From: Halovenus rubra
GTDB lineage: Archaea; Halobacteriota; Halobacteria; Halobacteriales; Haloarculaceae
Direction: 5' to 3'
Length of the DNA: 63,860 bases
NCBI RefSeq assembly: GCF_026586665.1
Contig: NZ_JAODIY010000047.1
Span: 1-63,860 of the forward strand
Within the stretch, counting starts at the first letter, position 1, and each line of letters starts with the position of its first letter. Positions 5,145 through 47,765 of the stretch are shown here, in pieces. The notes beneath the pieces were generated by a model that was not told the origin of the DNA, made no database searches, and saw only the letters and a list, made by a program, of their open reading frames with translations. The position numbers and the translations under genes were made by a program.

Positions 5145-5765
5145 ATGCATCAGAATCCATTATCTGAGGAAGAACTGCGGAGAGGGTTAGAGGGCTACAA
5201 ATCTGAAACGTTGGATCGTGATGCCCTCACGTTGGATGTGGATACATTCTGGGGGGAAGAGCAAAAAATGCTGAGAGAGTTCACAGAAATATTCCAACAG
5301 GAGGGGTGCATTCCGGAACGAAAGCATCTAAAATGCCTAACTAAATGGAAGTGGCCAGGACTCTGGGCGAATTACGCCAATGAAAACACACGAAACCATC
5401 TTCGCACTGTAACCAGCGAAGCCTTTCAGATGACAGCCGGGGACGAGCGACCAAAACCAGAAGATGTTCGCAACCAGCTTGAGCATCTCGATGACGAACT
5501 GACGGGAGTTTCAGCGGCTACAGGAACAGTATTGTTGACGTTTTGGCGCCCCGATATCTACACGGTAATGGATGTAAGGGCGATATCAACGCTGGAATTT
5601 GCCGGACTCTGGACGGGGGACAGCAGGGCGACTATCTCTGAGTATCCACAGTATCTCGAACAGTGTCATTCGATTGTTGAAGATACGAAACTCAGTCTTC
5701 GTGACACTGACAGGGCCATCTGGTACCTTGGTGGTGAATACTCAGATGGATCTTCCTTACATTAA
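5145..5765 (+). CDS. HhH/DNA-glycosylase-like protein, paralogue of the C-terminal half of the NADAR fusion
   Basis: 206 residues. The C-terminal half has a helix-hairpin-helix pattern, LTGVSAATGTVLLTF, followed after a short loop by YTVMDVRA. This resembles the HhH-GPD DNA glycosylase core, in which a hairpin is followed by the catalytic Asp. The end, LRDTDRAIWYLGG, matches LRTLDRALWVLGG at the end of the fusion protein encoded at 7997-8995, and the WKWPG and YTV(M/I)D blocks also align. The two are therefore paralogues. No NADAR domain is present here. The start is supported by a TATA-like box (TATAAT at 5114-5119) about 27 nt before the ATG. A role in DNA repair or defence is inferred only. 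Confidence 0.6.
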   Translation: MHQNPLSEEELRRGLEGYKSETLDRDALTLDVDTFWGEEQKMLREFTEIFQQEGCIPERKHLKCLTKWKWPGLWANYANENTRNHLRTVTSEAFQMTAGDERPKPEDVRNQLEHLDDELTGVSAATGTVLLTFWRPDIYTVMDVRAISTLEFAGLWTGDSRATISEYPQYLEQCHSIVEDTKLSLRDTDRAIWYLGGEYSDGSSLH

Positions 5766-6168
5766 CCGTGAGGGTATCATAGAACAGTTTACATACCCGC
5801 CGTATAGCGATCTATATCAATGGTAGCTCCATTTCCGACGCTATTTTTCGAGCTCAACTAAACAAACGCTCTCTTATGTCACCCATAACAACCGTTCTAT
5901 GGCATCGCTGAGAATCCCGCTACCTGAACAAACCACGTTTGGCGTGATAGATGTTACGTCCGTTTCAAGATGGTCTTTTTTTGGCGAAAAATTCACAGCA
6001 AGCCTGTCGCGTTCTGGGTTGATAAAGCCCCGGAGAATATGAGGTTTCCATTCGTCTTTAGTTAAGAGATCGCAAGACAGCGGTACGATTTAGTCATTAT
6101 GTAAGTAGAGCAGGAGATAAGAATTGACAATGAATTAACTATTGTTAAAATAAAGCGTTAAGATTACT

Positions 6169-6183
6169 GTGCACCCGGTGCAC
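6169..6183. promoter_or_regulatory. GTGCAC palindrome, candidate RHH operator (copy 1)
   Basis: GTGCACCCGGTGCAC is a pair of GTGCAC half-sites separated by three bases. It sits 25 bp before the ATG of the small RHH gene, where a bound repressor would block transcription. The same half-sites occur just after the gene at 6419-6433. Confidence 0.55.
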
Positions 6184-6207
6184 GCATTTCTAAGATTGTC
6201 TTAGAAC

Positions 6208-6410
6208 ATGACTCGAACAAAAATGGCGTCTCCGTCCGGACTGAACTCGTTGATGAGCTCGATCTCCTCGTTGAGGAGTGCGCAGATCTCGGAGCCAGCC
6301 GCTCCGAGATCGTTGAAGCAATCATCACAGCATATTTGCAAAGTGATGAAGAGAGAATTAAAAAGACGCGAGAGCTGGTTATCCGCAACAGAAAACGATC
6401 TAACTCGTAG
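6208..6410 (+). pseudogene. RHH DNA-binding protein gene, broken by a one-base deletion
   Basis: Compared with the intact copy at 26012-26215, this copy has lost one G from the GGG run after ATGACTCGAACAAAAAT. This shifts the frame after six codons and destroys the RHH core. All the remaining sequence, including the stop codon region, is conserved with the intact copy, so the damage is recent. The hairpin after the gene is intact. Confidence 0.8.
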
Positions 6411-6441
6411 AGAAGTCCGTGCACCGAGTGCACGGACTTCT
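6411..6441. terminator. Perfect 14-bp hairpin after the RHH gene (copy 1)
   Basis: AGAAGTCCGTGCAC, three bases CGA, then GTGCACGGACTTCT form a perfect 14-bp stem. It follows the stop codon directly. The inner part is again a GTGCAC-N3-GTGCAC palindrome. Copy 2 carries a paired change in the stem (T-A here, C-G there), so pairing or symmetry has been kept. It may act as terminator, operator or both. Confidence 0.6.
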
Positions 6442-6691
6442 TAGAGCGTTATTGGATATCACGGGCTGAGAGGATTAGTATCACCGTTGTGGTTGGTGAA
6501 TAGAAGGCTCATTTCTGCTGTCTAATCCCGTCGCCGTATTGCGGTTCAGATCTTAACTAAAGACGAATGATGAGGTTTCTTGGAGAAGTGTTGAGACGGG
6601 ACAGTTGGGAGCGACCAGCCCTGAACAGTCGTCATCGAACCACGTGGTGGGGTTGAGAGAATCAGTGTCTCGGAGTCATAGAGGGTGAAAA

Positions 6692-6934: not shown

Positions 6935-7034
6935 TACCGGCTCCGGCTGGTTTTAAATACTCAGAACCCGACAGTGCTCACCCCCAATGTTAACCGTTAT
7001 ATAATATTGACGTTAATATAGACACACTGTGTCG

Positions 7035-7781
7035 ATGGAAATCCCAGATCGTGTCCAGATCATCCCTTTCGGGTATGAACGTGCCCGAGTTATAGAGCCG
7101 ATCAATCGTCTCAAAGCAGATCAAGTGATACTCCTTCGTCAATATGAAGGAACCGATCACGAGGCACCATTTCAGGCTGATGTCGTGGAAGAACTCGAAG
7201 CCAACGACCGGATCAAAGTTGAACAACGACGGTGTGATATCTTTTCTCTTGAGGATTCACTGAGAGCAATCAAAAAAGCGATTAGTGACTGCGGAGATGA
7301 TGATGAAGTGTACGTTAACCTCGCAACAGGAAGTAAACTCACAGCAATAGCGGGGATGTATGCCTGCCAAGCAACTGGAGCAACACCGTTTTATGTGGGA
7401 TCTGAGTTCCGCGGTGCTGAGGGACATCTGGAACCACCGACAGAACCGTTGGTGGAGTCAGTCGGCAATATCCAAGAAATTCCGAGGTTCAATCTTGACC
7501 TCCCTAGCGAAGAGCAACAACAGATACTCGCGTACGTTGCTGACCGTGATCACGTCACAAAAAAAGAACTGATTCGCTATGCAGAAGACCAATCATTGCC
7601 GTTTATTGCCGAAACTGAGGCGAAGACCGATGAGGGGAAGTATCGACTGCTGGAAACGCATATTATTGATCCCCTAGAGGAAGATGGATACGTCGATATT
7701 ACAAAAAGTGGTCGAGAGAAGCACGTCGTCGTGACGGATAGGGGACAAGATCTTCTCGATATCGCTCCGTATAGTGACTAG
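7035..7781 (+). CDS. CARF-type transcriptional regulator (HFX_2341/DUF6293-like)
   Basis: 248 residues from the ATG at 7035 (an in-frame GTG lies six bases upstream). The first ~140 residues form a Rossmann-like domain with VQIIPFGYERARV at the start and YVNLATGSKLTAIAGMYAC in the middle, a Gly/Ser-rich loop typical of CARF ligand pockets. The C-terminal ~90 residues look like a winged helix-turn-helix (ILAYVADRDHVTKKELIRYA, later GYVDITKSGREKHVVVT). Proteins of this build sense nucleotide signals and bind DNA; Csa3 is the best-known relative. No cas gene or CRISPR array is visible in the window, so its ligand and targets are unknown. TATA-like boxes lie at 6998-7007 and 7011-7019. Confidence 0.75.
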   Translation: MEIPDRVQIIPFGYERARVIEPINRLKADQVILLRQYEGTDHEAPFQADVVEELEANDRIKVEQRRCDIFSLEDSLRAIKKAISDCGDDDEVYVNLATGSKLTAIAGMYACQATGATPFYVGSEFRGAEGHLEPPTEPLVESVGNIQEIPRFNLDLPSEEQQQILAYVADRDHVTKKELIRYAEDQSLPFIAETEAKTDEGKYRLLETHIIDPLEEDGYVDITKSGREKHVVVTDRGQDLLDIAPYSD

Positions 7782-7996: not shown

Positions 7997-8995
7997 TCAG
8001 CCACCGAGTACCCATAACGCACGATCAAGTGTCCGTAGATCAATCTCAAACTGGTTAGCAATTTCTCTGCACACCTGAAGGTAATTGATATATTCGTCTA
8101 TCGATGGACTGTCCGACACTGGTGTTTCCAGATAACCCTCTCTTGATAAAACACTACCAGCCCGCGAATCAATGACAGTGTATTCATCTGGGTTCATGAA
8201 CAACAAAAATGCCGAGGCCATCTTAACCTGAATTCCACTCAAATCGATGAGTAAATCCACTTTCCGGCGGGTAGACGATGTGTTAACTACTTCTTCAATG
8301 GCTCCCTTCACCCGATCTTGATCATTGCGCCTGAAGTAACCGATTGATCGATGGGTTTTCCAACGTACAATCCACTCCAAGTCGTCCCATGTCCACGTCC
8401 CATCCTCAAACGCTACTGGTAGCCGTTCAAGTTGTCGTGGTTCCTCTTTCTGGTAACGCTCCTCTGTTGCAATTTCCATATATTCGTCTGCTTTAGCAAT
8501 AATCAGTTCACGGTTCAATCCCATATCCAGTGACTGGAGCGATGACCGGACTTCCATGAGAATCCGACCGAGCATGTTCTTCCCCTCCCCGGTATCAGAG
8601 TCAGCACCCCAGTAGGTGTCGTCCCACCAGTTCAACTCAACCAACAACTCGTCACCGGTTTTGAGCAGTCGCTCCCGAAGTTCTGGATTCTGAGCGAACT
8701 TTGCCGTGACGATTTCGAGCATAATGTACTTTTTGCGCTCTTCCCAGTTTTTCGGGGGAGACGGCTTTTTGCCCAGCTTTTTCGCTTTATTCGGGCTCTC
8801 GGCAGAGGCGATTTCATCATACAACTCTTCCTCATCACGAGCTTTCATCGCCTGGTAAGCGTGCTCCGACGTCGGGAATTCTGTCCCGTCGTAGACAACG
8901 CTGACTTCGTAGAAGTTCGACAAGAACTCGTTGTCGTTTTCGAACGGTCCAATTACATCTTCTGTTGGCCATTGTGTGCGGTTGTAGTCAGACAT
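7997..8995 (-). CDS. NADAR-domain protein fused to an HhH/DNA-glycosylase-like domain
   Basis: 332 residues from the ATG at 8993-8995; the frame stays open much further upstream, but that part reads as non-coding and overlaps the next gene. Residues about 12-155 are a NADAR (YbiA-like) domain, shown by FLSNFYEV, SEHAYQAMKA, TGDELLVELNWWDD and GEGKNMLGRILMEVR. NADAR proteins act on ADP-ribose-type glycosidic bonds, and some reverse ADP-ribosylation of guanine in DNA. Residues about 165-332 hold LSGIQVKMASAFLLF followed by YTVIDSRAG, like the hairpin and catalytic Asp of HhH-GPD DNA glycosylases. The same half occurs alone in the protein at 5145-5765. The fusion suggests removal of modified bases from DNA; this is inference. 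It is divergent from the HAD-like gene, about 70 bp away. Confidence 0.75.
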   Translation of the reverse strand: MSDYNRTQWPTEDVIGPFENDNEFLSNFYEVSVVYDGTEFPTSEHAYQAMKARDEEELYDEIASAESPNKAKKLGKKPSPPKNWEERKKYIMLEIVTAKFAQNPELRERLLKTGDELLVELNWWDDTYWGADSDTGEGKNMLGRILMEVRSSLQSLDMGLNRELIIAKADEYMEIATEERYQKEEPRQLERLPVAFEDGTWTWDDLEWIVRWKTHRSIGYFRRNDQDRVKGAIEEVVNTSSTRRKVDLLIDLSGIQVKMASAFLLFMNPDEYTVIDSRAGSVLSREGYLETPVSDSPSIDEYINYLQVCREIANQFEIDLRTLDRALWVLGG

Positions 8996-9761: not shown

Positions 9762-12047
9762 ATGACACTACCAGTATTAACCCCAATTTTCGTTACCGGA
9801 TTGATTGTAGTCTTAGTCACTTGGCTCCTAGTACACAGTCTTGCAAAGGCTGTTACCAGGCGATTAGTGGTTGATGAGTCTGAGATTGGTGATGAAGAAC
9901 CGTATGTTGACGCGGTTAACTCCCGACATTGGAAACGAACGGTTCTTATTGCAGTCTACACAGTTGCGACTATTTTGATACTGATATTCTTTGATAGTAT
10001 CAATATATCGGAAATCAGGGTTGGGGAGACTGTTCAATCGGTACAAACCATTTGTGTCTTTTGCGGGTCATACACGATATACATGGATATGGAAGCACTA
10101 TCACGTGAATTAGAGGATACCACAACGAGATCGATCCTGACTATTTTGCTATTTTCAGCCATCACATCTGGACTATATGTTATATTATATACTCTTCTGC
10201 GATATCCAAACCCCGCTCAACACTATCCGCTCAAAACGGAAAATGAGAGAAGCACTGACGAGGCATCAGATGAAGATTCCCGGGAAAAAGAGGATCACGA
10301 ATCCACATCAGAGAGCAACCAGCAGGAGTCTAACACCGGTGATGTCAATTTAGAAGTACGCTCTTCGACGGAAACATCATCACGCACGTCACGGAGTTCT
10401 CGACGGACAACGAACTCAGTACATCCGAGTTCGGGAGAGACATTGCATTTCTTTGAGTCACCACCTGCAAAGGACTTCGAGAATATCGCAGGGATGGACG
10501 ATCTCAAAGCCGACCTCCAAGAGAAAATTATCGAACCGTTGGATGGAAAACAGGTCTACGCTCAATTCGGGGTTGGCGTTGAAAACGGCATCTTGCTGTA
10601 TGGTCCTCCTGGAACTGGAAAGACGCATATCGCACGATGTCTCGCCGGTGAACTCGGTGTGAATTTTGCGCCAGTTACGACAGGCGATGTTGCAGGACCG
10701 TCTCTGGGGATTGGGGTGCAGCTTATACGTACACTATTCGAGGAAGCGCGTCAAAATCAGCCAGCACTCATCTTCTTCGACGAATTGGACGCAATCGCGA
10801 CCGACCGATCAAGTCGGTCACAACATCATGACCGCAAACAAATGGTTTCTCAGCTGTTGCAAGAACTTTCGGCTCTCGATAACGAAGAGATAGTCATTAT
10901 TGGCGGAACAAATGATCCTGACGCAATCGACGATGCAATTATCCGCTCAGGCCGCTTTGATTCGAAAATCAGGATTCCAAAACCAGGTTTCGAGACACGC
11001 GGGGCAATTTTCACGTATCATCTCCCGGCACAGTGCGAAGAGATCGATCCGGACCGCTTCAAGCACGCGACCCAAAACTTCAGTGCGAGTGACTTGGTGC
11101 AAGCAGCAAACGGCGCATCGCGGCGTGCTGCCCGGCGCTTCCTACATACTAACTCATCATCAGTTACCATAACCGAGGAAGAGATCTTCGATGCGATTGA
11201 CGATGTTCGTTCGAATCACCGACAACTTGGTGAGTACGTCTCTCAGCCACCAGCCACAGGATTCGAAGCTGTCGCTGGCATGAACGGCCTGAAAACAAGA
11301 CTCCAGGAGATTGTTATCGACCCACTCGAACGCCCTCAAGAGTACGAGCGGTTCGGGATCTCCGTTGAAACAGGTATTCTTCTCTATGGTCCACCTGGGA
11401 CGGGCAAGACACACATAACCCACTGTTTAGCTGGCGAACTTGGTATCAACTACGTTGAGTGTCGAACAAGCGAACTCGTCAGTAAATTCGTCGGTCAAGG
11501 AGCGAAAAACGTTGATCAACTCTTTCAGGAAGCGACACAACACAGCCCCTGTCTGGTCTTTCTCGACGAACTGGATGCACTGGCAACTGATCGAACGCAA
11601 ACCCAGCAGACTCAAAGCCAGCGTCAGATGGTCAACCAGTTTCTGCAGGAACTGTCAGAACTCCATGCAGCCGACGAGACTGTAATCGTGATCGGAGCGA
11701 CGAACCGCCCCGGCGACATCGATACCGCGATTCTTCGGACGGGGAGATTTAACGAAAAAATAGAGGTACCTCCGCCAGATGGAAAGACACGGGTACAGAT
11801 TCTGCAATCACATCTTGAAGCACCTACGGGAGCACTCAATCTCGAACAGATTATAACCAGAACCCAGGGATTCGTGGCCAGTGATATGGAACAACTGGCG
11901 ACCGAATCGGCCCGTCACGCCCTTCGCCGATCCCGAGAGAATGACACGTCCGCAAAAGTCACACAACAGGATATCGAAGCAGCAATTCGTCGGCTTGAAT
12001 CGCCGCAAACGATACAATCACCAAGACAAAGAGTTGTCACAAATTAA
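9762..12047 (+). CDS. Membrane-anchored AAA+ ATPase with two AAA domains
   Basis: 761 residues. Three hydrophobic segments (about 8-27, 60-78 and 125-146) precede an acidic, Ser-rich linker (about 160-225). Two CDC48/FtsH-type AAA modules follow. The first has Walker A GPPGTGKT at 281-288 and Walker B ALIFFDELDA at about 335-344. The second has Walker A at 543-550 and Walker B CLVFLDELDA at about 597-606. RSGRF and RTGRF look like arginine-finger or sensor regions. No protease motif (HEXXH) is visible, so this is not FtsH. Such machines unfold or remodel proteins, here at the membrane. The HEAT-repeat gene starts 63 bp downstream on the same strand, suggesting a joint transcript and a partner or substrate adaptor role for that protein. 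Confidence 0.85.
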   Translation: MTLPVLTPIFVTGLIVVLVTWLLVHSLAKAVTRRLVVDESEIGDEEPYVDAVNSRHWKRTVLIAVYTVATILILIFFDSINISEIRVGETVQSVQTICVFCGSYTIYMDMEALSRELEDTTTRSILTILLFSAITSGLYVILYTLLRYPNPAQHYPLKTENERSTDEASDEDSREKEDHESTSESNQQESNTGDVNLEVRSSTETSSRTSRSSRRTTNSVHPSSGETLHFFESPPAKDFENIAGMDDLKADLQEKIIEPLDGKQVYAQFGVGVENGILLYGPPGTGKTHIARCLAGELGVNFAPVTTGDVAGPSLGIGVQLIRTLFEEARQNQPALIFFDELDAIATDRSSRSQHHDRKQMVSQLLQELSALDNEEIVIIGGTNDPDAIDDAIIRSGRFDSKIRIPKPGFETRGAIFTYHLPAQCEEIDPDRFKHATQNFSASDLVQAANGASRRAARRFLHTNSSSVTITEEEIFDAIDDVRSNHRQLGEYVSQPPATGFEAVAGMNGLKTRLQEIVIDPLERPQEYERFGISVETGILLYGPPGTGKTHITHCLAGELGINYVECRTSELVSKFVGQGAKNVDQLFQEATQHSPCLVFLDELDALATDRTQTQQTQSQRQMVNQFLQELSELHAADETVIVIGATNRPGDIDTAILRTGRFNEKIEVPPPDGKTRVQILQSHLEAPTGALNLEQIITRTQGFVASDMEQLATESARHALRRSRENDTSAKVTQQDIEAAIRRLESPQTIQSPRQRVVTN

Positions 12048-12110
12048 TATGAACCGACAAGTACTACTACCGAACAAGCCACCAAGGTCGCTCTTTCACA
12101 GGAGGGTAGC

Positions 12111-15100
12111 ATGGTTGTTCTAATTCAGGAGTTCGATAGGGAGGATGATGAGGTCAAACAACTTGGCCGTCTTCACAACGGAGAGATTCTCGTCACACAT
12201 GTTGAGGATTTCGACGAGAACGTTGCAGGGATGCGAGAAGTGACTGAAAGAGAACGAACATACAGTCCAGCGACAGATCGGTCATACCGGTCGATCGAAC
12301 GACGAAAGGAGCGAGTGTTCGGTCGTCCACCAGTCACGCTGAAAGATGAACTCTCTCTTACTAGACGGTTTAAACCACCGTACGGTGTCTATGCCTCGAT
12401 TCTCTCGCCAGATAGTGACAGTGAGCTGCTCCAGAAAATGGACGCTGCTGAGACGGTTGCCCCGCCTTACAGGCCCGTTTCGCTGACAGCCGTTGAGTTC
12501 AGGCACTACCATGATCCATATGATGAAGACAAGCCCGCAGTTTTTTGTTGCATCACACGCGATAGAACGGGATTCTTTCAGGAAATGAACGGACAGACAC
12601 CACTGCAAGATATCTATGCGTTTACTGTTCCGGAGACAACGCGCCAATACCTCCTCGATATGTGCTATACGGCAGATATCTTTTCCCTTGCTCATACTCA
12701 CATCAGAGAGGACGAGCCAGAACCGCGACCCTCCATTGCAACAGGCATTCGAATCGGTGAGACCGAAAAATGGATTTACAATTATACGCGCTCGCCCCCC
12801 GAAGCGGTCGAAGACATCGAAGACGAGTTGAGAACTGCCTGTGGAACCGATCTCTGGCTGGAGCCTTCTCCCGAGAAACTGGTCACTCTCGTAGAATCAG
12901 ACGATCAGCGCGCGAGTATCGCACTCGCTGTTCTTCACGCAGCATTCGACGAAAACATCGAAACCGACGTTGACCCAGATCGGTGCATTGATGCTGTCAG
13001 ACCGTATCTCTCAATTTCATCGCCCGTAACACGACGGCACGCCGCTGCAATCGTTGCGAAGACAATCCTGGCGGCGTCACTCTCTCCAAGAGACGTCATC
13101 GATCTCGTTGTGCCACTGTTGCAGGACGATGACGACATGGTGCGCACTCATGCAGGAGATGCACTCAGAACACGCGGTATACTGTCTGACTCAGACCGAC
13201 TGGCAGACATTCTGCAGCGAGAGAATCAATCCCTCCGCGAAGGAGTGATCGAACAACTCCAGCGATTCGCCGAGGATTTCTCAGTCGGACTGGACGAAAG
13301 TACGACTCTCCTTGCGGACGAATTGCAATCTGACAATGAGACTATCAGAAAAGCTGCATCACAGGCGTTTGCTGAACTCATTGATGGGAAAAATTCAGTC
13401 GACAAAGCGGTACGAAGTGCGCTCGTTGCAGGCCTTGACGACTCAAACAAGAGTGTTCGAATTAAATGTGGCGAGTCACTCGCACGTTTGGGTGCGACCG
13501 ATGCACTGATTACGCATCTCGAAACCGCTGAACCGGAGAAGCAGACTAGTACGCTGGCTGGGCTTGAAAAAATTGCAGCAGAGGAGCCAGAAACCGTCCT
13601 TGATGCACTCACTGTTTTTGATGATATCCTTGATGACGGACCTCCTGCAGGCCGGAAGCGAGCGGCACACCTTCTTGCGACGGTAGCAACAGCCTATCCG
13701 GACCGGATGTTTCTGTTTCTCCCCCGTGTCTCGTCACTCACAGTTGATACAACCGATGGAATCCGTGAAAGCGGATTTCAAATCGTCGAAGCAATGGTTC
13801 GTGACGAACCCGAGATGTTTTCCTTCGTTCGGTCAGCTGTCGAGACCGGATTCGAAGACAGTTCTAGAACTGTTCGAGAACATGCGTTCACCACAGCGGT
13901 CATCGCTGGTCACGACTCGCTCGTCCTTGATGCCCTCCAGCACGAGCAATCATCGGTTCGGTCAAGTGCCGCCACAGTCCTAGAATCGGCAGGAACAGAA
14001 CAGCCCGATCGATTCTACGAGCACCTCCAGACGTTACTGGAAACTCTCGACGATGACGCTGTTCGATCTTCACTCGTTTCGCTCGTAGATACCCTCGTAA
14101 TGTGGAGTGAGACGACTACCGATGACGTGTCCCTGCTCACCGAGAGGCTGGAATCGGGGCAGCCTGAAACGAGGCACGCCCTCGCTCAGATCCTTGCAAA
14201 AGTCGCCGACGAGCACCCGCAAGCAATCATCCCTTATTCTCAGCGCCTCGTTGATTTACTTGAGGGGACAGAGACGGAAACACGCAGACACGTGCTCGAG
14301 TGTCTTGCTGCAGTAGCTGAACACGACCCATCCACCTTGTCGGAATCTACAGACAAAATTGTTGCAGCCTTCGAAGACGAAGAATACGATTGTCGTGACG
14401 CAGCGGCACGCTGTGGAGCAGAACTCTGTTCTATGCGCCGACTAAAGGCGATTGTTCGTGAAGGGAGCGAACACGAACAACACACGGCATGGTGGGCTCT
14501 CGAACGCATCGCGCGGGAGAATCCGGACCGGGTTCATGACGTCCTTCCACTCGTTGAACAGCAATTGGATTCAATCACGGGGGAGGAGGTCTCGCAAATA
14601 GAGCGCCGAGCTGCAGAGCTGGTCGAACACGTTGCTGACACGATGCCCGAACGTGTACTCCCGGTGGTTCCCGCACTGACGACAGCGCTTGGTGCCCGTG
14701 GACGATTCACTCGATTGGCGGCCTGCAACGCGCTGGCTGCAGTCGGCAAAGAAGATGTCGCGCCTATTCTCGATGCCGTGCCTTCGCTTGCCCCACTGCT
14801 GGATGATCAGTTCGATGATGTCCGGCGTGCTGCCCTGACCGTGCTACGGTTGATAAGTGAGCCGTATCCCGACGAAATACGTCCGGTGGTCCCAGCACTG
14901 ATTGAATTGGTCGAGAGCGATGACTGCCCTGTCGAAGCACTGGTAATCCTTGGAATGGTCGCAGACGAGTACCCAACTGCTGTCGAGTCGGCAATCGAGA
15001 CGTGTCTCGAAAAGATATCGGCTGAAGACACGCGGCTACAAAATAATGCGCTTGCAGTACTGTCTGAACTTGCAAACGAATATCCAGACGAGCTCATTGC

Positions 15101-15524
15101 TGCATCTGAGAGTTATATTGCTCTTCTCGAAAGCGATGACCGGCGAGTTAGATATAATGCCGTTTCGATAATTGCACGGCTCGCAACAACACATCCAGAC
15201 TCGTTCGTTGATTCAGAACAAGAATTGGTCGAGTGTTTGCAGGCAGAGTATCCTCCAACCAGAGCAAATGCATGTTGGGCAGTGGGTCGACTTGGATTCG
15301 ATGTCGCAGAACCGCGACTAGAGTACCTCCAGCAGACGGACCCCGATAACTCAGTCCAGGCAGGTGCGATTGCAGCGCTCACTCTTCTGTCACTCTCGAC
15401 GTGCCCACATTGTGACGAACAGCAGGAGCCACATACAGTGTCACTTCGTGTGGTGTTTCCAGAATACGTTGAATGGACTTGTCCACACTGCAGCGAAAAA
15501 ACAACGACCTCGATTGCTGGCTGA
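12111..15524 (+). CDS. Giant HEAT-repeat protein with C-terminal zinc ribbon
   Basis: 1137 residues. About residues 1-230 form a distinct N-terminal domain of unknown fold. From about 260 to 1090 the sequence is an almost unbroken run of HEAT-type helical repeats, with repeated VRxxA, LVxLL and EYPDE/EHPQ patterns, giving a long superhelical scaffold for protein contacts. The C-terminal 50 residues hold two knuckles, STCPHCDEQQ and WTCPHCSEKT, which form a zinc ribbon. There is no enzyme motif. Being directly downstream of the two-AAA membrane ATPase, it may recruit clients or regulate that ATPase. I know of no named family with this exact layout. Its base composition is close to that of its neighbour, arguing that they moved together. 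Confidence 0.75.
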   Translation: MVVLIQEFDREDDEVKQLGRLHNGEILVTHVEDFDENVAGMREVTERERTYSPATDRSYRSIERRKERVFGRPPVTLKDELSLTRRFKPPYGVYASILSPDSDSELLQKMDAAETVAPPYRPVSLTAVEFRHYHDPYDEDKPAVFCCITRDRTGFFQEMNGQTPLQDIYAFTVPETTRQYLLDMCYTADIFSLAHTHIREDEPEPRPSIATGIRIGETEKWIYNYTRSPPEAVEDIEDELRTACGTDLWLEPSPEKLVTLVESDDQRASIALAVLHAAFDENIETDVDPDRCIDAVRPYLSISSPVTRRHAAAIVAKTILAASLSPRDVIDLVVPLLQDDDDMVRTHAGDALRTRGILSDSDRLADILQRENQSLREGVIEQLQRFAEDFSVGLDESTTLLADELQSDNETIRKAASQAFAELIDGKNSVDKAVRSALVAGLDDSNKSVRIKCGESLARLGATDALITHLETAEPEKQTSTLAGLEKIAAEEPETVLDALTVFDDILDDGPPAGRKRAAHLLATVATAYPDRMFLFLPRVSSLTVDTTDGIRESGFQIVEAMVRDEPEMFSFVRSAVETGFEDSSRTVREHAFTTAVIAGHDSLVLDALQHEQSSVRSSAATVLESAGTEQPDRFYEHLQTLLETLDDDAVRSSLVSLVDTLVMWSETTTDDVSLLTERLESGQPETRHALAQILAKVADEHPQAIIPYSQRLVDLLEGTETETRRHVLECLAAVAEHDPSTLSESTDKIVAAFEDEEYDCRDAAARCGAELCSMRRLKAIVREGSEHEQHTAWWALERIARENPDRVHDVLPLVEQQLDSITGEEVSQIERRAAELVEHVADTMPERVLPVVPALTTALGARGRFTRLAACNALAAVGKEDVAPILDAVPSLAPLLDDQFDDVRRAALTVLRLISEPYPDEIRPVVPALIELVESDDCPVEALVILGMVADEYPTAVESAIETCLEKISAEDTRLQNNALAVLSELANEYPDELIAASESYIALLESDDRRVRYNAVSIIARLATTHPDSFVDSEQELVECLQAEYPPTRANACWAVGRLGFDVAEPRLEYLQQTDPDNSVQAGAIAALTLLSLSTCPHCDEQQEPHTVSLRVVFPEYVEWTCPHCSEKTTTSIAG

Positions 15525-21100: not shown

Positions 21101-22459
21101 TCACTGAGGTGGTGAGACCTCGACAGCGTACTCCGCAGCTAATTCCACGACATCATAGACGTGAATGCCTGATTTGAACCATAGCACACGGTCATCCATC
21201 CCCTCAAAATCCTCCGACGAGCAATCCAACCGCTCAGACACAGCGACGATGAGGTTATCTCGGTCAGCCTCACGTATCTTCGACAGTTTCTCATCGAGGT
21301 ACTCTGGCGTCCAGAACCCAACGATCTCGAATATAACCCGCCGTCCGTCTGGATGTTCTAGGGCGAAATCAGGAAGCATCACCTCCGCACCCAAATCCAG
21401 CACGTCATCTTCTCGAATCAATTCCCAGTCAGTATTCGCCCGTTCCCACTTCTGAGCGAGTGTCCGTTCCACATCAGAATCAAAATCGCTCTGTGCCGAG
21501 TAATGCGAGGACAAGTCATCAGTATAGTCAAGCTCGAACGAGAGTGTCCCGCCTGTGGAACCACCCTCTCCGTCGAGAATATCGGCTTCCATTTCCCATC
21601 GGTCACACAACGGGAGAGCAGGGAGGAAATTTGCCATCCGTATCCCGTACTTTCGTGATTTCGAGAACAGAGACGCCGCCCCGTCCAAGATTGCTTCGTA
21701 GCCGTCTGCGACATCAGTACTCGCTACCCGATTCCCGTTGCTGTCGACTGGATAGATACGGTGCATCAGTCCGAACAGTTTGACGTAGCTGAAGACTGTG
21801 GCAAACGAATCCCAGACTCGCACTCGCATCTCTGTGGCATCGTACAAGACAGCCTGAGCCAGAGCAAGATTGTAGCGTGTGAGAAGCCAATCAACCGTGA
21901 TCGTATCCTCGGCGTAGGACTCTTCACTATCACCCGTGAGCCGTGTCGTGGTGGTTGAGTCATCCGCGTTCTCGTATTCATCGGAAACACGGTGTCCAAA
22001 TCGAACCAGTCGCTTGTTCTCCTCCAAGTCGGCGTACATCCCCCGATAGCATTCTTCGAGCGTGATGCCCAGTTGGTCAGCGACGGAGCTGTAGACTTCC
22101 AGTTTCTGTGTGTCCTCGCCGAGCGTTGGCTGTCGGACAATCGGGTACGATCCATTTGCCTTCTCGAAGAGCGCCTGTCGAATCTCTTGTGGCTCGACTG
22201 GAGCCACGGTCTCGAACTCGCACTCGTCTTTCAGCAACTTCGCCAATCCCTGTACGATTTTGTAGTCCGTATCTGCGATGGTGAGCTGGTCAATCGTGTC
22301 CTCCAGTTCGCCCTTTGGCTCGCCAAGATGCTCCTCGAAAATCCGAATGAGTTTCTCGGCTGTGTCTCGATACTGTTGCTCGTCAGCGTCGATGAACAAC
22401 GGTGTGATGGTACCCTCGTACGTGCGTGAGCGTGCAAGGTCAGCTGTCAGCACTCGCAC
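21101..22459 (-). CDS. bax1: Bax1-type nuclease (DUF790), partner of XPB
   Basis: 452 residues, with the start overlapping the end of the XPB gene by 20 bases. The N-terminus begins MRVLTADLARSRTYEG and shows the DUF790 helical domain. The C-terminal third holds the nuclease core: LGAEVMLPDFALEHPDGRRV followed by IFEIVGFWTPEYLDEKL, with Asp in the LPDF motif and Glu in the FEIVG strand. Bax1 is a structure-specific DNA endonuclease that binds the archaeal XPB helicase and cuts bubble DNA, as known from Sulfolobus-type archaea. The overlap with XPB indicates tight co-expression. The pair is thought to work in nucleotide excision-type repair. Confidence 0.85.
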   Translation of the reverse strand: MRVLTADLARSRTYEGTITPLFIDADEQQYRDTAEKLIRIFEEHLGEPKGELEDTIDQLTIADTDYKIVQGLAKLLKDECEFETVAPVEPQEIRQALFEKANGSYPIVRQPTLGEDTQKLEVYSSVADQLGITLEECYRGMYADLEENKRLVRFGHRVSDEYENADDSTTTTRLTGDSEESYAEDTITVDWLLTRYNLALAQAVLYDATEMRVRVWDSFATVFSYVKLFGLMHRIYPVDSNGNRVASTDVADGYEAILDGAASLFSKSRKYGIRMANFLPALPLCDRWEMEADILDGEGGSTGGTLSFELDYTDDLSSHYSAQSDFDSDVERTLAQKWERANTDWELIREDDVLDLGAEVMLPDFALEHPDGRRVIFEIVGFWTPEYLDEKLSKIREADRDNLIVAVSERLDCSSEDFEGMDDRVLWFKSGIHVYDVVELAAEYAVEVSPPQ

Positions 22460-23849
22460 TCACCCCCTGCCGACGCTGTTCGGAGACGTAGGTCTCCATC
22501 GTGTCCTCGGCGATAATCTCGTAAAGGCGGGCGGGTTGACGGTCATCTGTCGGGCGAAGAATCCGACCCAATCGCTGTGCGTACTGTCGTTTTGACGCAC
22601 TTCCCGAGAGGATAATACCCACGTTCGCCGCTGGCACGTCGATCCCCTCGTCCAGCACTTGTGAGGTGGCAAGCATCGAGTACTCTCCCATTCGAAACCG
22701 CTCCAGAATCTCTGTTCGTTCCTCCGTTTCCGTCTGGTGGGTGATACAGGGGACGACGAACTCTTGAGAGATCTCGTAGGCGAACTCGTTGTTGGCGGTG
22801 AAGATGATGGTACGGTCGTCGTGGTGTCGTTTTAGGAGATTATCGAGTGTGTCCAGTTTTTTCGTGGCAGTACGGGCGATCTTCTCGGCTCGTTGCTTAG
22901 CGATGAGGGCACGCCGTCCCTGTGGGTCGTACGAGGTTCGTTTGAGAAATTCCTGATATCCGCGTTCTTTCCAGAGGTCGAACTCGTGGCTGTCCACGTA
23001 GTCACGGTAAATCTGGTATTCCTCGTTGTACTCCTCCCCCTCATCAACTGTGAGATCGACCTGGAGATGGATTGTCTCGTACTCACTGAGATAGTCGCCA
23101 GCAAGTTCATCGACTTCCTCTCGATAGACAACTGTCCCAAGCAAGTCCTCAAGTTCTTCGTGTGCTCCATCAGCACGCTCGTACGTAGCTGTGAGTCCTA
23201 ACCGATAGGGAGCAATCGTCATCTCGGGAATTTGTTGGTAAGTCGGAGCTGGAAGGTGGTGTACCTCGTCCACGACGAGAAGTCCGAACTGATCACCGTA
23301 CTCGTTGATGTAGCGGTACGCACTATCGTAGGTTGTCACCGTGATATCCGTCACGTTGTGGCTTCCGCCACCGAGGACACCGACCCCATCTGGAAGCTGG
23401 TCACCGAAAGCGTTGGTAAGCGTCGCGTGCCATTGGTTCATCAGATCGATAGTTGGCACGACAACGAGCGTACTCACACCCGCATCAGCAATAGCTTGGA
23501 CGGCGAGGAACGTCTTTCCACTTCCCGTTGGGAGAATGACGCTCCCACAACGGTTGTTATCACGCCACGCTGAGAGAGCCTCTTGCTGATAGTCACGAGG
23601 TTCGATGGCAACGGACGGCGTGAAATAGAACTCGGAGTAGGCACGGGCGTCGTCCTCAAACTCAGCCACAGTCGCTGTGGATTCTTCGAGGGTTGCCTGT
23701 CCGTCAGATTCAGTTGCCCACTCTCGAATATCACTGTAATGCTGTGCCTGTGCTCTGAACTCGTCGACACGGTCGTCGTACTGGGCATAGGGGACATCCT
23801 CGGGAGCGTCTTCGAGGAGAAGCGTACCATCGTCAAACGAGAGACGCAT
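22440..23849 (-). CDS. xpb: XPB-like DNA helicase (superfamily 2)
   Basis: 469 residues. Walker A PTGSGKT lies at 107-113, the DEAH-type box VVDEVHH at about 192-198, motif III is LGLTATYERAD, and the second RecA-like domain ends with SQVLDEGIDVPAANVGI and QRLGRILRP. DYQQEAL near 85 is the Q-motif-like region. The length is that of compact archaeal XPB without the TFIIH-specific extension. The enzyme is an ATP-dependent 3'-5' DNA translocase or helicase. It is upstream of and overlaps bax1, so the two form a complex-coding unit. It may be ancestral to this lineage rather than island cargo. Confidence 0.9.
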   Translation of the reverse strand: MRLSFDDGTLLLEDAPEDVPYAQYDDRVDEFRAQAQHYSDIREWATESDGQATLEESTATVAEFEDDARAYSEFYFTPSVAIEPRDYQQEALSAWRDNNRCGSVILPTGSGKTFLAVQAIADAGVSTLVVVPTIDLMNQWHATLTNAFGDQLPDGVGVLGGGSHNVTDITVTTYDSAYRYINEYGDQFGLLVVDEVHHLPAPTYQQIPEMTIAPYRLGLTATYERADGAHEELEDLLGTVVYREEVDELAGDYLSEYETIHLQVDLTVDEGEEYNEEYQIYRDYVDSHEFDLWKERGYQEFLKRTSYDPQGRRALIAKQRAEKIARTATKKLDTLDNLLKRHHDDRTIIFTANNEFAYEISQEFVVPCITHQTETEERTEILERFRMGEYSMLATSQVLDEGIDVPAANVGIILSGSASKRQYAQRLGRILRPTDDRQPARLYEIIAEDTMETYVSEQRRQGVSASADS

Positions 23850-43604: not shown

Positions 43605-46600
43605 CTACATGAAATCGGCAATCCCTGCCTGCTTGTTCGTATCATCCTCGAAGATACGGTCGATTCGAGTTTCGAGAATTTCGAGGCGCTGTTTCGTATA
43701 GTCTCGGCAGTCGAACTCTTCGGCGACGTGGATGGCAGTGTCCATGTACTTGTTGACCGAGCCCTCGTGGACGGTCAGGTTGATATCTCCGCCACACGTT
43801 GGACAGTTTCCGGAGAGGGGCGCACGCCGGAATTTCTCGCCACAACCAAGACACCGAAACTCCTGACTTGAGAAAGCCTTGAGATTGCCCAGCAGGTCCG
43901 GCAGGAAATGGAACTCAATGATGCGCTCGGCTACGTCGGTCTGGTCGACCGCCCGGAGTTTGCGCGAGAGCGCAAGCTGGGCATCCATCTTTTCCTGCAT
44001 CGAGCCCAGCGTTTTGTACGCCGAGAGGTCCGGGCCGGCCGCGATATCGGTTGTATCGTGTGAGTGGTCAAATCCGCTATACTCTCGGTTGGTCCCCAGC
44101 GTCTCTTCTGCGATAGTCATTATCTCTTCGACCTCACCAGTTTCGGCGAGATTCCGCGTCGCTTCATAGAATGCGAGCGGATACTTACGCATGATGTCGA
44201 CGTTGTGTGCCTCGTCGTCGATTTCTGCGGGGTCGATACGTGAGGACATCACCAGCGGTGCGTCCATCTGTCCTCCACGCTGGTCAGGGAGGAACTGCTT
44301 GCTGAAATTGAGTAGGCCATCGAGCAGGAGCATCACGCAGTCTTCGTCACCATCGCACTGGGCGGTGTATAGGCCATTTGCGACCAACGTATGCGTGTTT
44401 TCGACTGTGAGACAATACGTATACTCGCTGTCGGCGGTGACGTATTCGACAGCGCTGATTTCGTCGAGCCATACCTCACCGCCGTCACTGAGCAGCTGAG
44501 GACGACCATCGTACGATACAGGAACAGCATCGGGTTGACTCGGTGACGGTACGTTGTCACCAGCTTCGAGTTCAGTAGCTGTGACCCGCTGCACCGAGTC
44601 GTCATATTTGAGCATCTCGTGATCTGGCGTCACTGTTAGTTTCCGACCGCCACGGGTTTTGATTTCGACGAGATGGTCTGGTGCTGGATGTCTAGATACG
44701 GCGTTGACCGGCTGGATACGTTCTCTCCCGTCATCCGTGATTGATGGGACGTAGATATCCTCGTCGAGTTCCTGAATCAGCGTTCCGAAATCGTCACTCT
44801 GTGGATTGTTCAGTCGCTTCTCGACGAGAGTTTCAATGGCGTCGTGATGCCAGTCACTCTCTGCGTCTTGATACCAGACTTTCGTCTCCGGATGGAAACA
44901 GTTTCTTCGTTTTGCCGCATGGAAGTATGGATGTGCGTATCCGACGGCAGCGCTGGTGAAGCCGACAACGCGCCCAACGGTGGCGGCGCTCGTATGAGGT
45001 GCCATCCCGAAGACGAGTTCGCCGACGAGGTCGTCGCGCTCTTTTAGTTCGTAGTAGGGGTCTAGTCCGTAATACTTGCTAAGCAGGTCATCGACGAAGT
45101 CGGCCGTTTTCAGCATGTGTTTTGCGGCCCCGTCCGAGAGAACCACATCTTGCACGTTGAGCTCGACCAGTTGGTCGCTGTGACGGAGCGGGTCGCCGTT
45201 GATATCTTCGTGGTAGCCGAGTTCACGGAACTGTTCGACAGTCACATCTAACTCCTCTGGGCGGACGGCGGTAACCGGCAGGTCAGTCATATCGTAGCGG
45301 ATGGTGCCGTCTTTGAACACGGAGATGTCGTGTTTCGCTCTGAGGATTCCTTTTTCGATTGGTTCGGGTGTCTTTTCTTCTGAGGTAAGTCGCTTGACAG
45401 CTTTGAGCTTCTCGAAGGCAGCCGGTCGCTCGCCGACAGCATCGAGGGCTTGTTTGTACTCCTGTCGGAGATGCATCGTCCGGTCCTGCGTTGGACTGGC
45501 CAGGACCTCACAGTTGGGACACTCTGCCCGCCCGGACTCGTCGGGCTCGACCTCGCGGTCACAGTCAGGACAGACATAGACTGCCTCTGCCACATCACCA
45601 CAGTCGGGACAGCGTGCCCGGTAACTTCGTGTCCCACAGGAGCGACACTCACGCCGACCAACTTCGGCCTCTATCTGCCCACGGGTCCCTTCGACTTCGT
45701 CGCCGTGGTCGGCTGCGTCACCAACTGAGCGCTGGTTTCCGCCTGCGTCTCTGATCGGAAATAGTGTGTGGACTGCCGGTGAAAGTTCTCGTTCTTCGGA
45801 TTTCTCTGGGCGACCCATCCGGTTGCCGATTCGGGTTGGTGCCCGTTCGCGCACGGTAAAGGGAGCAATCTCATTGATTGCCTCGATGGCGTTTGCTCCG
45901 TCGTCGTACAAGCGGGCACGCTCGCTCAACTGGTCGACTGTCCAAGACCGCTTCAGGTCGTCATCGAACCCAACTGTCCGGATGAGTGGCTTCCATACTG
46001 GAATCGAAAGCGTCTCCTCGTTTTGGGTGTGCTCGACCAGCAGGGTTTCGAGTGTCCGTCTGACCTGCTCTGTATGCGGAACAACAAGCACGTCAGCTCT
46101 TGACTGCGCGTTCGAGGGGCTGGACCCATTGCCGCCACCGGAGTTTGTCTCCATTGCGCCGTCAGTTGCGACCAGCTCACCCGCCTCGATTGCGTCGGCA
46201 AGCGCGTCGACAGCGTCGACGCTTACGTCGTGCCAGACGTAGGTGTATTTCGGGTGGAGCGGCGCATCGAACTCAGTTGCCCACTCCAATGCCTTGTCCG
46301 TTGTCGGGTCTGTCAGGTCGACCTCAGTGCTATCATGCAATGCTTGTACTGGTGCGGTGGTCTCCTCGAACTCTTGGACCCACCACTCATACACATACGA
46401 AGCCGGCGCGAGTGGATGGTTGTTTTCGACGAACTCGCCGTAGTTGACGAGGTACTCCCCGAGGTCGAGAATTCGCTTCACTCCGTTACGAATTTCGAGT
46501 GCTTCGTCGGCATCATCGATACGACGAACGTCTCCGTTTGCGAGTCTGACAGTCGGGCCCTCGATGGTATCGACTGGGACGACACCAGCGGCTTTCCCCG

Positions 46601-47765
46601 GACGTTCGGTCTTTATTTGAGTTCCTGTAGCAAGGAAGTCATCGACAAGATGCATTGTTGCTGGGTGGACACCTGCGGTGGCGTGTCCGTGGTTTCGGGC
46701 CCGCCCGTAGCGCAGCCGGAAGCCGCCCGACTCACTCGGGTGTGAAAACACCGGCCGACCGGCGATGAGGTCCTGCAAGAACTTTTTCGATGAATCTGCT
46801 CGAAGTGGGCCAGCAGGTGTAGCGTCGTCATCTGAGCCTGTGTCTGTCGTTTCTTTGCCGTCTGTCTCGCCTTCGTCTGATTTCTCGTTGTCACTCTCGT
46901 CGTTACTGTCAGCTGTTGGGTCGTCGCCGTAGTTGCCGTCGATGAGGTCCTGTAGCCAAGGCCAGTCGATTTCGTCAAGGTTGCGCGTATAGCGCTGTAT
47001 CTTGGGAGCTTTGAGTGCGATTCCCTCGCCGAAGACAAGACACATTCCGCCGCGTGCAGAGTTGGTAGCGACTCTATCGAGGTCTCGAAACCCCGATACT
47101 TCTTCGTCGCCAGTTGCCTCGCCGTCGAGCATAATCGGCATATGCTTGGCGATGAACTTTCCCTCCTTTTCTTTGGGAGCATACTGGAGACCGGTTTCCT
47201 CGTCGTAGAGCCCGACCTCTTCGGCGTAGCGGTTGACCTCGATATCGCGTGGTTTGTACTCGTCGATGCCAAGCAACGACCGAGCGTAGTCGGCTACGAG
47301 CACCGAGAGTGCCTGTGCTGTCCCGCCTGCTGACCGGATTGGGCCGGCGTAGTAGACGTTAACGAACTCGGTGCCATCGTCGTTTTCGAGGAGTTCCACA
47401 CGGTCGATTCCCTCGATTGGGGCAGCGACGACACCCTCAGTGAGCAGTGCAACGGCAGTCCTGACTGCACCCTCGACTTTCCCAGCTCGCGTCTCGTAGT
47501 CGCCAACGCTCCCGTCAACGAAGTCCTCGACAAGTTCGAGCGCAGCCTCTTCACGAGACATCTCTCCTTCGAGTTCGCGGACACGTTCGGCAACTCCGTC
47601 GATACCGAGGATATTCTCGACGCGGTCGGCCATATCCTTGGCGACCGGAATCTCGACTTCGGGTGTAGGGTCGCCACCACGTTCGCGTGCTGCGTTGGCG
47701 ACTTCGAATGCGTTGTCGAGTTCGGTTTCGAGTCGCTCGAAGTATCGTTCGTCTTCTGGCGTCAT
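43605..47765 (-). CDS. polC: DNA polymerase D large subunit DP2, with intein
   Basis: 1386 residues as encoded, 1205 after intein loss. FVNVYYAGPIRSAGGTAQAL and VNRYAEEVGLYDEETG near the N-terminus are typical of DP2. GGMCLVFGEGIALKAPK follows. Cys clusters CRSCGTRSYRARCPDCG and CPDCDREVEPDESG form zinc sites, and CLGCGEKFRRAPLSGNCPTC lies near the end. NCDGDEDCVMLLLDGLLNFS, which contains the catalytic Asp residues, is split by the intein. DP2 is the catalytic subunit of the archaeal replicative polymerase PolD, paired with DP1, which is not in this window. An acidic insertion (about residues 285-325) is haloarchaeal. The PPC-domain gene directly abuts upstream, so both may be on one transcript. 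Confidence 0.95.
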   Translation of the reverse strand: MTPEDERYFERLETELDNAFEVANAARERGGDPTPEVEIPVAKDMADRVENILGIDGVAERVRELEGEMSREEAALELVEDFVDGSVGDYETRAGKVEGAVRTAVALLTEGVVAAPIEGIDRVELLENDDGTEFVNVYYAGPIRSAGGTAQALSVLVADYARSLLGIDEYKPRDIEVNRYAEEVGLYDEETGLQYAPKEKEGKFIAKHMPIMLDGEATGDEEVSGFRDLDRVATNSARGGMCLVFGEGIALKAPKIQRYTRNLDEIDWPWLQDLIDGNYGDDPTADSNDESDNEKSDEGETDGKETTDTGSDDDATPAGPLRADSSKKFLQDLIAGRPVFSHPSESGGFRLRYGRARNHGHATAGVHPATMHLVDDFLATGTQIKTERPGKAAGVVPVDTIEGPTVRLANGDVRRIDDADEALEIRNGVKRILDLGEYLVNYGEFVENNHPLAPASYVYEWWVQEFEETTAPVQALHDSTEVDLTDPTTDKALEWATEFDAPLHPKYTYVWHDVSVDAVDALADAIEAGELVATDGAMETNSGGGNGSSPSNAQSRADVLVVPHTEQVRRTLETLLVEHTQNEETLSIPVWKPLIRTVGFDDDLKRSWTVDQLSERARLYDDGANAIEAINEIAPFTVRERAPTRIGNRMGRPEKSEERELSPAVHTLFPIRDAGGNQRSVGDAADHGDEVEGTRGQIEAEVGRRECRSCGTRSYRARCPDCGDVAEAVYVCPDCDREVEPDESGRAECPNCEVLASPTQDRTMHLRQEYKQALDAVGERPAAFEKLKAVKRLTSEEKTPEPIEKGILRAKHDISVFKDGTIRYDMTDLPVTAVRPEELDVTVEQFRELGYHEDINGDPLRHSDQLVELNVQDVVLSDGAAKHMLKTADFVDDLLSKYYGLDPYYELKERDDLVGELVFGMAPHTSAATVGRVVGFTSAAVGYAHPYFHAAKRRNCFHPETKVWYQDAESDWHHDAIETLVEKRLNNPQSDDFGTLIQELDEDIYVPSITDDGRERIQPVNAVSRHPAPDHLVEIKTRGGRKLTVTPDHEMLKYDDSVQRVTATELEAGDNVPSPSQPDAVPVSYDGRPQLLSDGGEVWLDEISAVEYVTADSEYTYCLTVENTHTLVANGLYTAQCDGDEDCVMLLLDGLLNFSKQFLPDQRGGQMDAPLVMSSRIDPAEIDDEAHNVDIMRKYPLAFYEATRNLAETGEVEEIMTIAEETLGTNREYSGFDHSHDTTDIAAGPDLSAYKTLGSMQEKMDAQLALSRKLRAVDQTDVAERIIEFHFLPDLLGNLKAFSSQEFRCLGCGEKFRRAPLSGNCPTCGGDINLTVHEGSVNKYMDTAIHVAEEFDCRDYTKQRLEILETRIDRIFEDDTNKQAGIADFM
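44358..44900 (-). other. Mini-intein in DP2 (181 residues)
   Basis: The insert begins with Cys (CFHPETKVWYQD) directly after AKRRN and ends VANGLYTAQ before CDGDED of the host protein. The splicing block with TPDHEMLKYD carries the conserved His of block B. No LAGLIDADG or other homing-endonuclease motif is present. The last residue is Gln, not the usual Asn. This is known for inteins at this DP2 site and implies splicing by cyclisation of Gln. It sits exactly in the active-site loop of the polymerase. Confidence 0.9.

Follow-up and report, generated by a model that had tools for sequence, protein, structure and literature searches.

A membrane-anchored tandem AAA+ ATPase gene and its HEAT-repeat neighbour in a Halovenus rubra island: a possible split relative of single-chain TM-HEAT-AAA-AAA proteins

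The gene pair and its products

The window considered here, that is, the whole stretch of DNA that was analysed (63,860 nucleotides from Halovenus rubra), is an entire contig. The first-pass annotation had placed two adjacent, co-directional genes at 9762-15524, and both open reading frames (ORFs) do exist there. They code for a tandem AAA+ ATPase and a large HEAT-repeat protein, with the following features:

879-1529: resolvase
9762..12047, + strand: tandem AAA+ ATPase, 761 aa (ORF, Pfam, hydropathy)
9762..10199, + strand: membrane part of the ATPase, with hydrophobic segments at residues ~1-32, 57-85 and 123-146 (hydropathy)
10200..10451, + strand: Ser/Glu-rich linker of the ATPase, at the position of the HEAT domain in sister proteins (sequence, alignment)
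10461..11231, + strand: AAA module D1, intact Walker A and B motifs, non-aromatic pore loop (SLG) (motifs)
11232..12005, + strand: AAA module D2, intact Walker A and B motifs, aromatic pore loop (FVG) (motifs)
12100..12106, + strand: GGAGG-type ribosome-binding sequence ahead of the HEAT gene, in the intergenic gap (sequence)
12111..15524, + strand: HEAT-repeat scaffold, 1137 aa (ORF, Pfam)
12534..12836, + strand: DUF6438-like domain, residues ~142-242, second half of the N-terminal region of the HEAT protein
12903..15389, + strand: HEAT solenoid (Pfam)
15402..15491, + strand: C-terminal zinc ribbon CPHC...WTCPHC (two CPxC), kept in the Halomontanus and Halobellus homologues

The two genes share the same strand and are separated by 63 bp. 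The GGAGG-type sequence in this gap is consistent with the HEAT gene being an internal gene of an operon, and the two genes may be co-transcribed. On its other side, the ATPase gene is flanked by an ORF without Pfam match. The GC content is 49% at 1-16 kb of the window versus 56% past 35 kb. The earlier placement of the pair in an island is reasonable, given this shift to low GC, the presence of the resolvase and the very patchy occurrence of relatives. Elsewhere in the window, the minus strand codes at 43605-47765 for a DNA polymerase II large subunit that seems to contain an intein-like insertion.

The ATPase had been described as having three membrane helices, two complete AAA modules and no protease, and hydropathy, Pfam and the Walker motifs all agree with this description. 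Pfam recognizes two AAA modules (3e-77), both of which carry the Walker A motif GPPGTGKT and the Walker B motif DELDA, and D1 and D2 are 47% identical to each other. No peptidase domain was detected with Pfam or NCBIfam models. The C-terminal tail reads RQRVVTN, and the HbYX motif is absent from the C-terminal tails of this protein and of its sister proteins (see the next section). According to the positive-inside rule, the ATPase is expected to adopt an N-out/C-in topology. The low GC of the region coding for the membrane part was considered as a sign of domain replacement and rejected, since the same drop is seen in the membrane part of several sisters.

The partner protein contains HEAT_2 repeats in nine stretches (Pfam, 1.6e-36), and no transmembrane (TM) segment is predicted in it. 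Its earlier description as a long HEAT-repeat scaffold with a zinc ribbon stands, but the DUF6438-like domain at the N-terminus had been overlooked. The region spanning residues ~1-260 is conserved in all homologues. The DUF6438 match of the Halomontanus homologue and of the copy in genome G311 reaches E-values of 5e-12 and 9e-11 (42-46 bits in these two homologues, versus a Pfam gathering cut-off of 30), and that of the window copy stays at 0.001-0.005 (17-19 bits). A JAMM-like reading of an HTH...S stretch in the N-terminal domain was discarded, as the DUF6438 match explains this stretch better. A structural model of the N-terminal domain, built from two usable alignment rows, had a pLDDT of 33 and was left unused.

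The ATPase groups with TM-HEAT-AAA-AAA proteins

Among 392 haloarchaeal genomes, only a few relatives of the ATPase show 46-51% identity, versus ~35% for the usual Cdc48 paralogues; one more relative, less close at 41% identity, came from a family search (genome G500). Seven of these relatives, referred to here as the sisters and 46-54% identical to the window ATPase over both modules, are single-chain proteins with a TM-HEAT-AAA-AAA architecture, in which the HEAT domain lies between the membrane part and the AAA modules in all seven cases (three recognized by Pfam and the remainder by alignment). This HEAT domain is small (~150-190 aa), and the sisters carry two TM helices, with the Halococcus protein showing a single long hydrophobic stretch. 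They are encoded by Halocatena marina, H. pleomorpha, two other Halobacteriales, Halococcus morrhuae, Actinarchaeum halophilum and one further genome. A literature search found nothing on this architecture and no assigned function, an absence that counts as weak evidence.

A tree computed from the tandem AAA part places the window ATPase as sister to the seven TM-HEAT-AAA-AAA proteins with a support of 96/93, and these eight proteins together with the G500 relative stand apart from the haloarchaeal Cdc48s with 100/100. The window ATPase forms a long branch, which makes its exact position less certain than these values imply. It is the one protein of the eight that lacks HEAT in cis, and the Ser/Glu-rich linker occupies that place; either the window ATPase may have lost the HEAT domain or the sisters may have gained it. 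All eight proteins have an aromatic D2 pore loop (F/W-[VI]-G), and in all but one the D1 pore loop is displaced, missing or lacks an aromatic residue.

Several observations were made at the loci of these relatives. The G500 protein (L133 8325-10850) has tandem AAA modules and at least four TM helices, lacks HEAT, and its gene is immediately followed by a large Eco57I-type methylase-like gene. At five of the seven sister loci (L084-L088; e.g., L084 5219-6850), a secreted-type S8 subtilase-like gene lies ~2-3 kb downstream, separated from the TM-HEAT-AAA-AAA gene by other genes. An S8 peptidase is also what IetAS combines with its AAA ATPase, but the product of this gene bears a TAT-like signal. 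Divergent small membrane proteins are conserved beside the sister ATPase in several genomes (L083-L088), one of ~120 aa with an ELDMFDMLAI tail and another of ~170 aa with multiple TM segments; they could be partners of the ATPase. Finally, an XPB-like helicase gene and a second gene are common to the window (21101-23849) and to the Halococcus morrhuae contig that carries a TM-HEAT-AAA-AAA gene (L082 1673-4902), with 43-84% identity.

The HEAT protein and the HhH genes

Whole-length searches with the HEAT protein retrieve many matches to generic HEAT repeats, and true homologues were identified only through the N-terminal domain. With this domain as a query, the protein turns out to be very rare: in two sets of haloarchaeal genomes (392 and 391) it occurs in the window and in one other genome, and a search of 125 family genomes returned only that same other genome (G311). 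Two plasmids, of Halomontanus rarus and Halobellus ramosii, add further homologues, and scans of viral contigs, genome contigs and phage records gave no additional copies. The Halomontanus protein is 44% identical over its full length and has the same zinc ribbon; the Halobellus protein (638 aa) has the same two ends and a shorter solenoid; the G311 homologue is a truncated chromosomal copy of 359 aa. Weak DUF6438 matches in three other haloarchaea were spurious and correspond to PAS and membrane proteins.

Conservation of the gene pair across haloarchaea had been proposed in the first-pass annotation as the way to check the association, with homologues lying apart as its refutation, and the outcome speaks against conservation. 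An ATPase of the window type lies beside the HEAT homologue at none of the three loci (Halomontanus, Halobellus and G311), the two plasmids contain no match to the window ATPase anywhere, and none of the ATPase relatives adjoins a homologue of the window HEAT protein. On both plasmids, the HEAT gene is instead immediately preceded by a gene for an OGG-like HhH protein, with gaps of 21 bp (Halomontanus) and 3 bp (Halobellus). These HhH proteins are ~195 aa long, show weak OGG/HhH matches and are homologous, with 46% identity to each other. On the Halomontanus plasmid (L042 9447-25196), the HEAT-HhH pair lies near Piwi-domain, MBL-fold and AAA_14/DUF4143 genes, a defence-like neighbourhood. Relatives of these genes are also found upstream of the ATPase in the window:

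5145..5765, + strand: HhH/OGG-like protein, relative of the gene upstream of the plasmid HEAT genes (33% identity)
7029..7781, + strand: HFX_2341-family CARF and winged-helix protein, 54% identical to a protein at the Halobellus HEAT locus
7997..8992, - strand: NADAR domain fused to a second HhH/OGG-like domain (35% identity over 128 aa to the plasmid HhH family)

The chief rival to a joint function of the ATPase and the HEAT protein, somewhat unlikely in our judgement, builds on these genes. It holds that the HEAT protein is a scaffold that, together with an OGG-like HhH protein and perhaps CARF and NADAR proteins, recognizes damaged or modified DNA on mobile elements, the ATPase being an unrelated neighbour. 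Besides the tight HEAT-HhH linkage on the two plasmids, two of the only three HhH-family genes in the whole genome fall in this window, and the window shares with the Halobellus locus a CARF protein of the HFX_2341 family, which has only two genes in the Halovenus genome. A predicted structure of the 5145-5765 product (pLDDT 87.5) matches the 8-oxoguanine glycosylase fold (Z 10.2, rmsd 4.0-4.5 over 162-164 residues; best matches 3n0u and 3knt, the small Ogg enzymes of Thermotoga and Methanocaldococcus), with the caveat that helical folds can reach middling Z by chance. In regard to the catalytic pair of HhH-GPD enzymes, an Asp-like position (YTVMD) is present in the window copies and is not family-wide, and the Lys position is not conserved. 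The NADAR match at 7997-8992 is strong (2.5e-31); NADARs reverse guanine ADP-ribosylation (PMC11125620), and on that basis the NADAR-HhH fusion may act on modified DNA. Against this reading, the HhH genes of the window lie 1-7 kb upstream of the ATPase-HEAT pair, outside the HEAT transcription unit, and no HhH gene immediately precedes the truncated G311 copy. Moreover, the HhH family is common (112 of 243 haloarchaeal genomes) and usually lacks a HEAT neighbour; tracing it led to unrelated contexts, and at one HhH locus (L126) a HEAT ORF is found ~6 kb away. Should this alternative be true, the HEAT protein would belong to a rare plasmid-borne module of HEAT and glycosylase-like components.

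Between these upstream genes, at 6100-6600 of the window, a small ribbon-helix-helix-like ORF lies between the near-palindromes GTGCACCCGGTGCAC and GTGCACCGAGTGCAC, which are perhaps an autoregulated operator pair.

Interpretation and comparison with known systems

The reading that we favour, with a probability of roughly 45%, is that the locus encodes a split, membrane-anchored tandem AAA+ extractase or unfoldase with a HEAT recruiter acting in trans. Its three helices would hold the ATPase in the cytoplasmic membrane, and both AAA rings would lie on the cytoplasmic side. Substrate would be pulled by the D2 ring, with its aromatic FVG loop, and the D1 ring, whose pore loop is degenerate, would have a part in assembly or regulation, as it does in eukaryotic Cdc48. 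This division of labour is suggested by the match of the D1/D2 pore-loop asymmetry to that of Cdc48, as the D1 ring of the yeast enzyme lacks the aromatic pore residue and most of the work is done by D2 (PMC5511170). The role of substrate recruiter or adaptor would fall to the DUF6438-HEAT-zinc-ribbon protein, which would do in trans what the small HEAT domain of the sisters does in cis. Such a machine would not degrade proteins but extract or dismantle them at the membrane; extraction or disassembly is the simplest reading because of the membrane helices, the lack of a protease domain and the lack of an HbYX tail. The domain content, the intact motifs, the fusion in the sister clade and the lack of a protease domain are observed; from them we infer co-transcription and a physical complex of the two proteins, as well as the adaptor role, the topology and the substrates.

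Part of the case for this split machine comes from the arrangement itself. The genome contains six HEAT-bearing ORFs and an estimated ~3,500 genes, so the chance that a given gene has a HEAT gene as its immediate neighbour is ~0.3%. Furthermore, a HEAT gene follows immediately downstream of precisely the one member of the eight-protein group that lacks HEAT in cis. The fused HEAT domains of the sisters were evaluated as specific relatives of the window HEAT protein and rejected as such (best domain 38 bits, versus up to 44 for unrelated haloarchaeal HEAT proteins); the comparison therefore supports an association of the ATPase with some HEAT module, not with this HEAT family. The association of this ATPase type with HEAT recurs at the domain level, and the gene pair as such, a single instance, is on present evidence not a conserved system. 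The functional pairing proposed at the outset thus survives in part: it gains from the cis HEAT of all seven sister ATPases and loses from the lack of conservation of the gene pair and from the HhH partners of two HEAT homologues. Two results stand on firmer ground: the small family of TM-HEAT-AAA-AAA proteins, to which the window adds a split relative, and the pairing of HEAT and HhH genes on the two plasmids.

It could be argued that the pair is a chance adjacency of two independent island genes without shared function, since it was found once and the relatives of each gene reside in different contexts. The common strand, the short gap with its ribosome-binding sequence and the cis HEAT of the sister ATPases make this improbable. 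A role in antiviral defence, as an IetAS-type or a new system in which the AAA+ protein and a HEAT sensor act at the membrane upon infection, seems very unlikely. PADLOC IetA models do match the AAA modules (1e-79), the surrounding low-GC island includes candidate defence genes as well as those for the resolvase, NADAR and CARF proteins, and the Halomontanus HEAT locus has Piwi, MBL and AAA genes in its vicinity. However, the IetA match is generic to AAA proteins (the NCBIfam IetA model scores 251 bits versus a cut-off of 510, and the PAN, FtsH and CDC48 models score higher), no S8 peptidase gene lies directly beside the window ATPase, and the PADLOC matches of the HEAT protein are weak (OloA, 2e-11, within the HEAT repeats). 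Just as doubtful is a single island system in which an AAA+ segregase, a HEAT recruiter, OGG-like base recognition and CARF together sense foreign or modified DNA and strip or extract proteins at membrane sites, which, if true, would be of a kind not described so far.

If the split-machine reading is correct, there would be a small haloarchaeal family of membrane-anchored tandem AAA+ machines outside Cdc48, FtsH and PAN, whose HEAT recruiters are either built in or supplied separately. Comparison of the fused with the split forms would then offer a natural experiment on the role of the HEAT part. Protease-free membrane protein quality control in archaea is little explored.

With regard to known systems, the NCBIfam models for FtsH, PAN, CDC48 and IetA match the window ATPase only in its AAA parts and all below their curated cut-offs; the protein is therefore none of them. 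IetAS consists of an AAA ATPase paired with an S8 peptidase; the window locus resembles it in AAA similarity and in its mobile, defence-like surroundings, but has a HEAT partner and no adjacent IetS peptidase. Unlike PAN, which has a single AAA module, the window ATPase has two and lacks HbYX (302-373 bits versus cut-offs of 500-750). FtsH belongs to the same broad class, with N-terminal TM segments followed by AAA, and gives the best NCBIfam score (390 bits versus a cut-off of 600), but the window ATPase has a second AAA module and is devoid of the C-terminal M41 zinc metalloprotease domain. With Cdc48/VAT/p97 it shares the tandem D1-D2 arrangement and, with the eukaryotic Cdc48, a D1 without aromatic pore residue; it differs in having a TM part and linker in place of the Cdc48 N-domain, in its membrane anchor and in its separate, fully supported clade (349 bits with the CDC48 model versus a cut-off of 802.65). 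On the partner side, the HEAT protein resembles DUF6438 proteins in its N-terminal domain, to which it adds the long HEAT solenoid and the zinc ribbon. The TM-HEAT-AAA-AAA sisters share with the window ATPase the AAA-AAA clade, the N-terminal membrane anchor and the D1/D2 pore-loop asymmetry; they combine two TM helices with HEAT in cis, whereas the window form has three TM helices and a separate 1137-aa HEAT protein encoded downstream.
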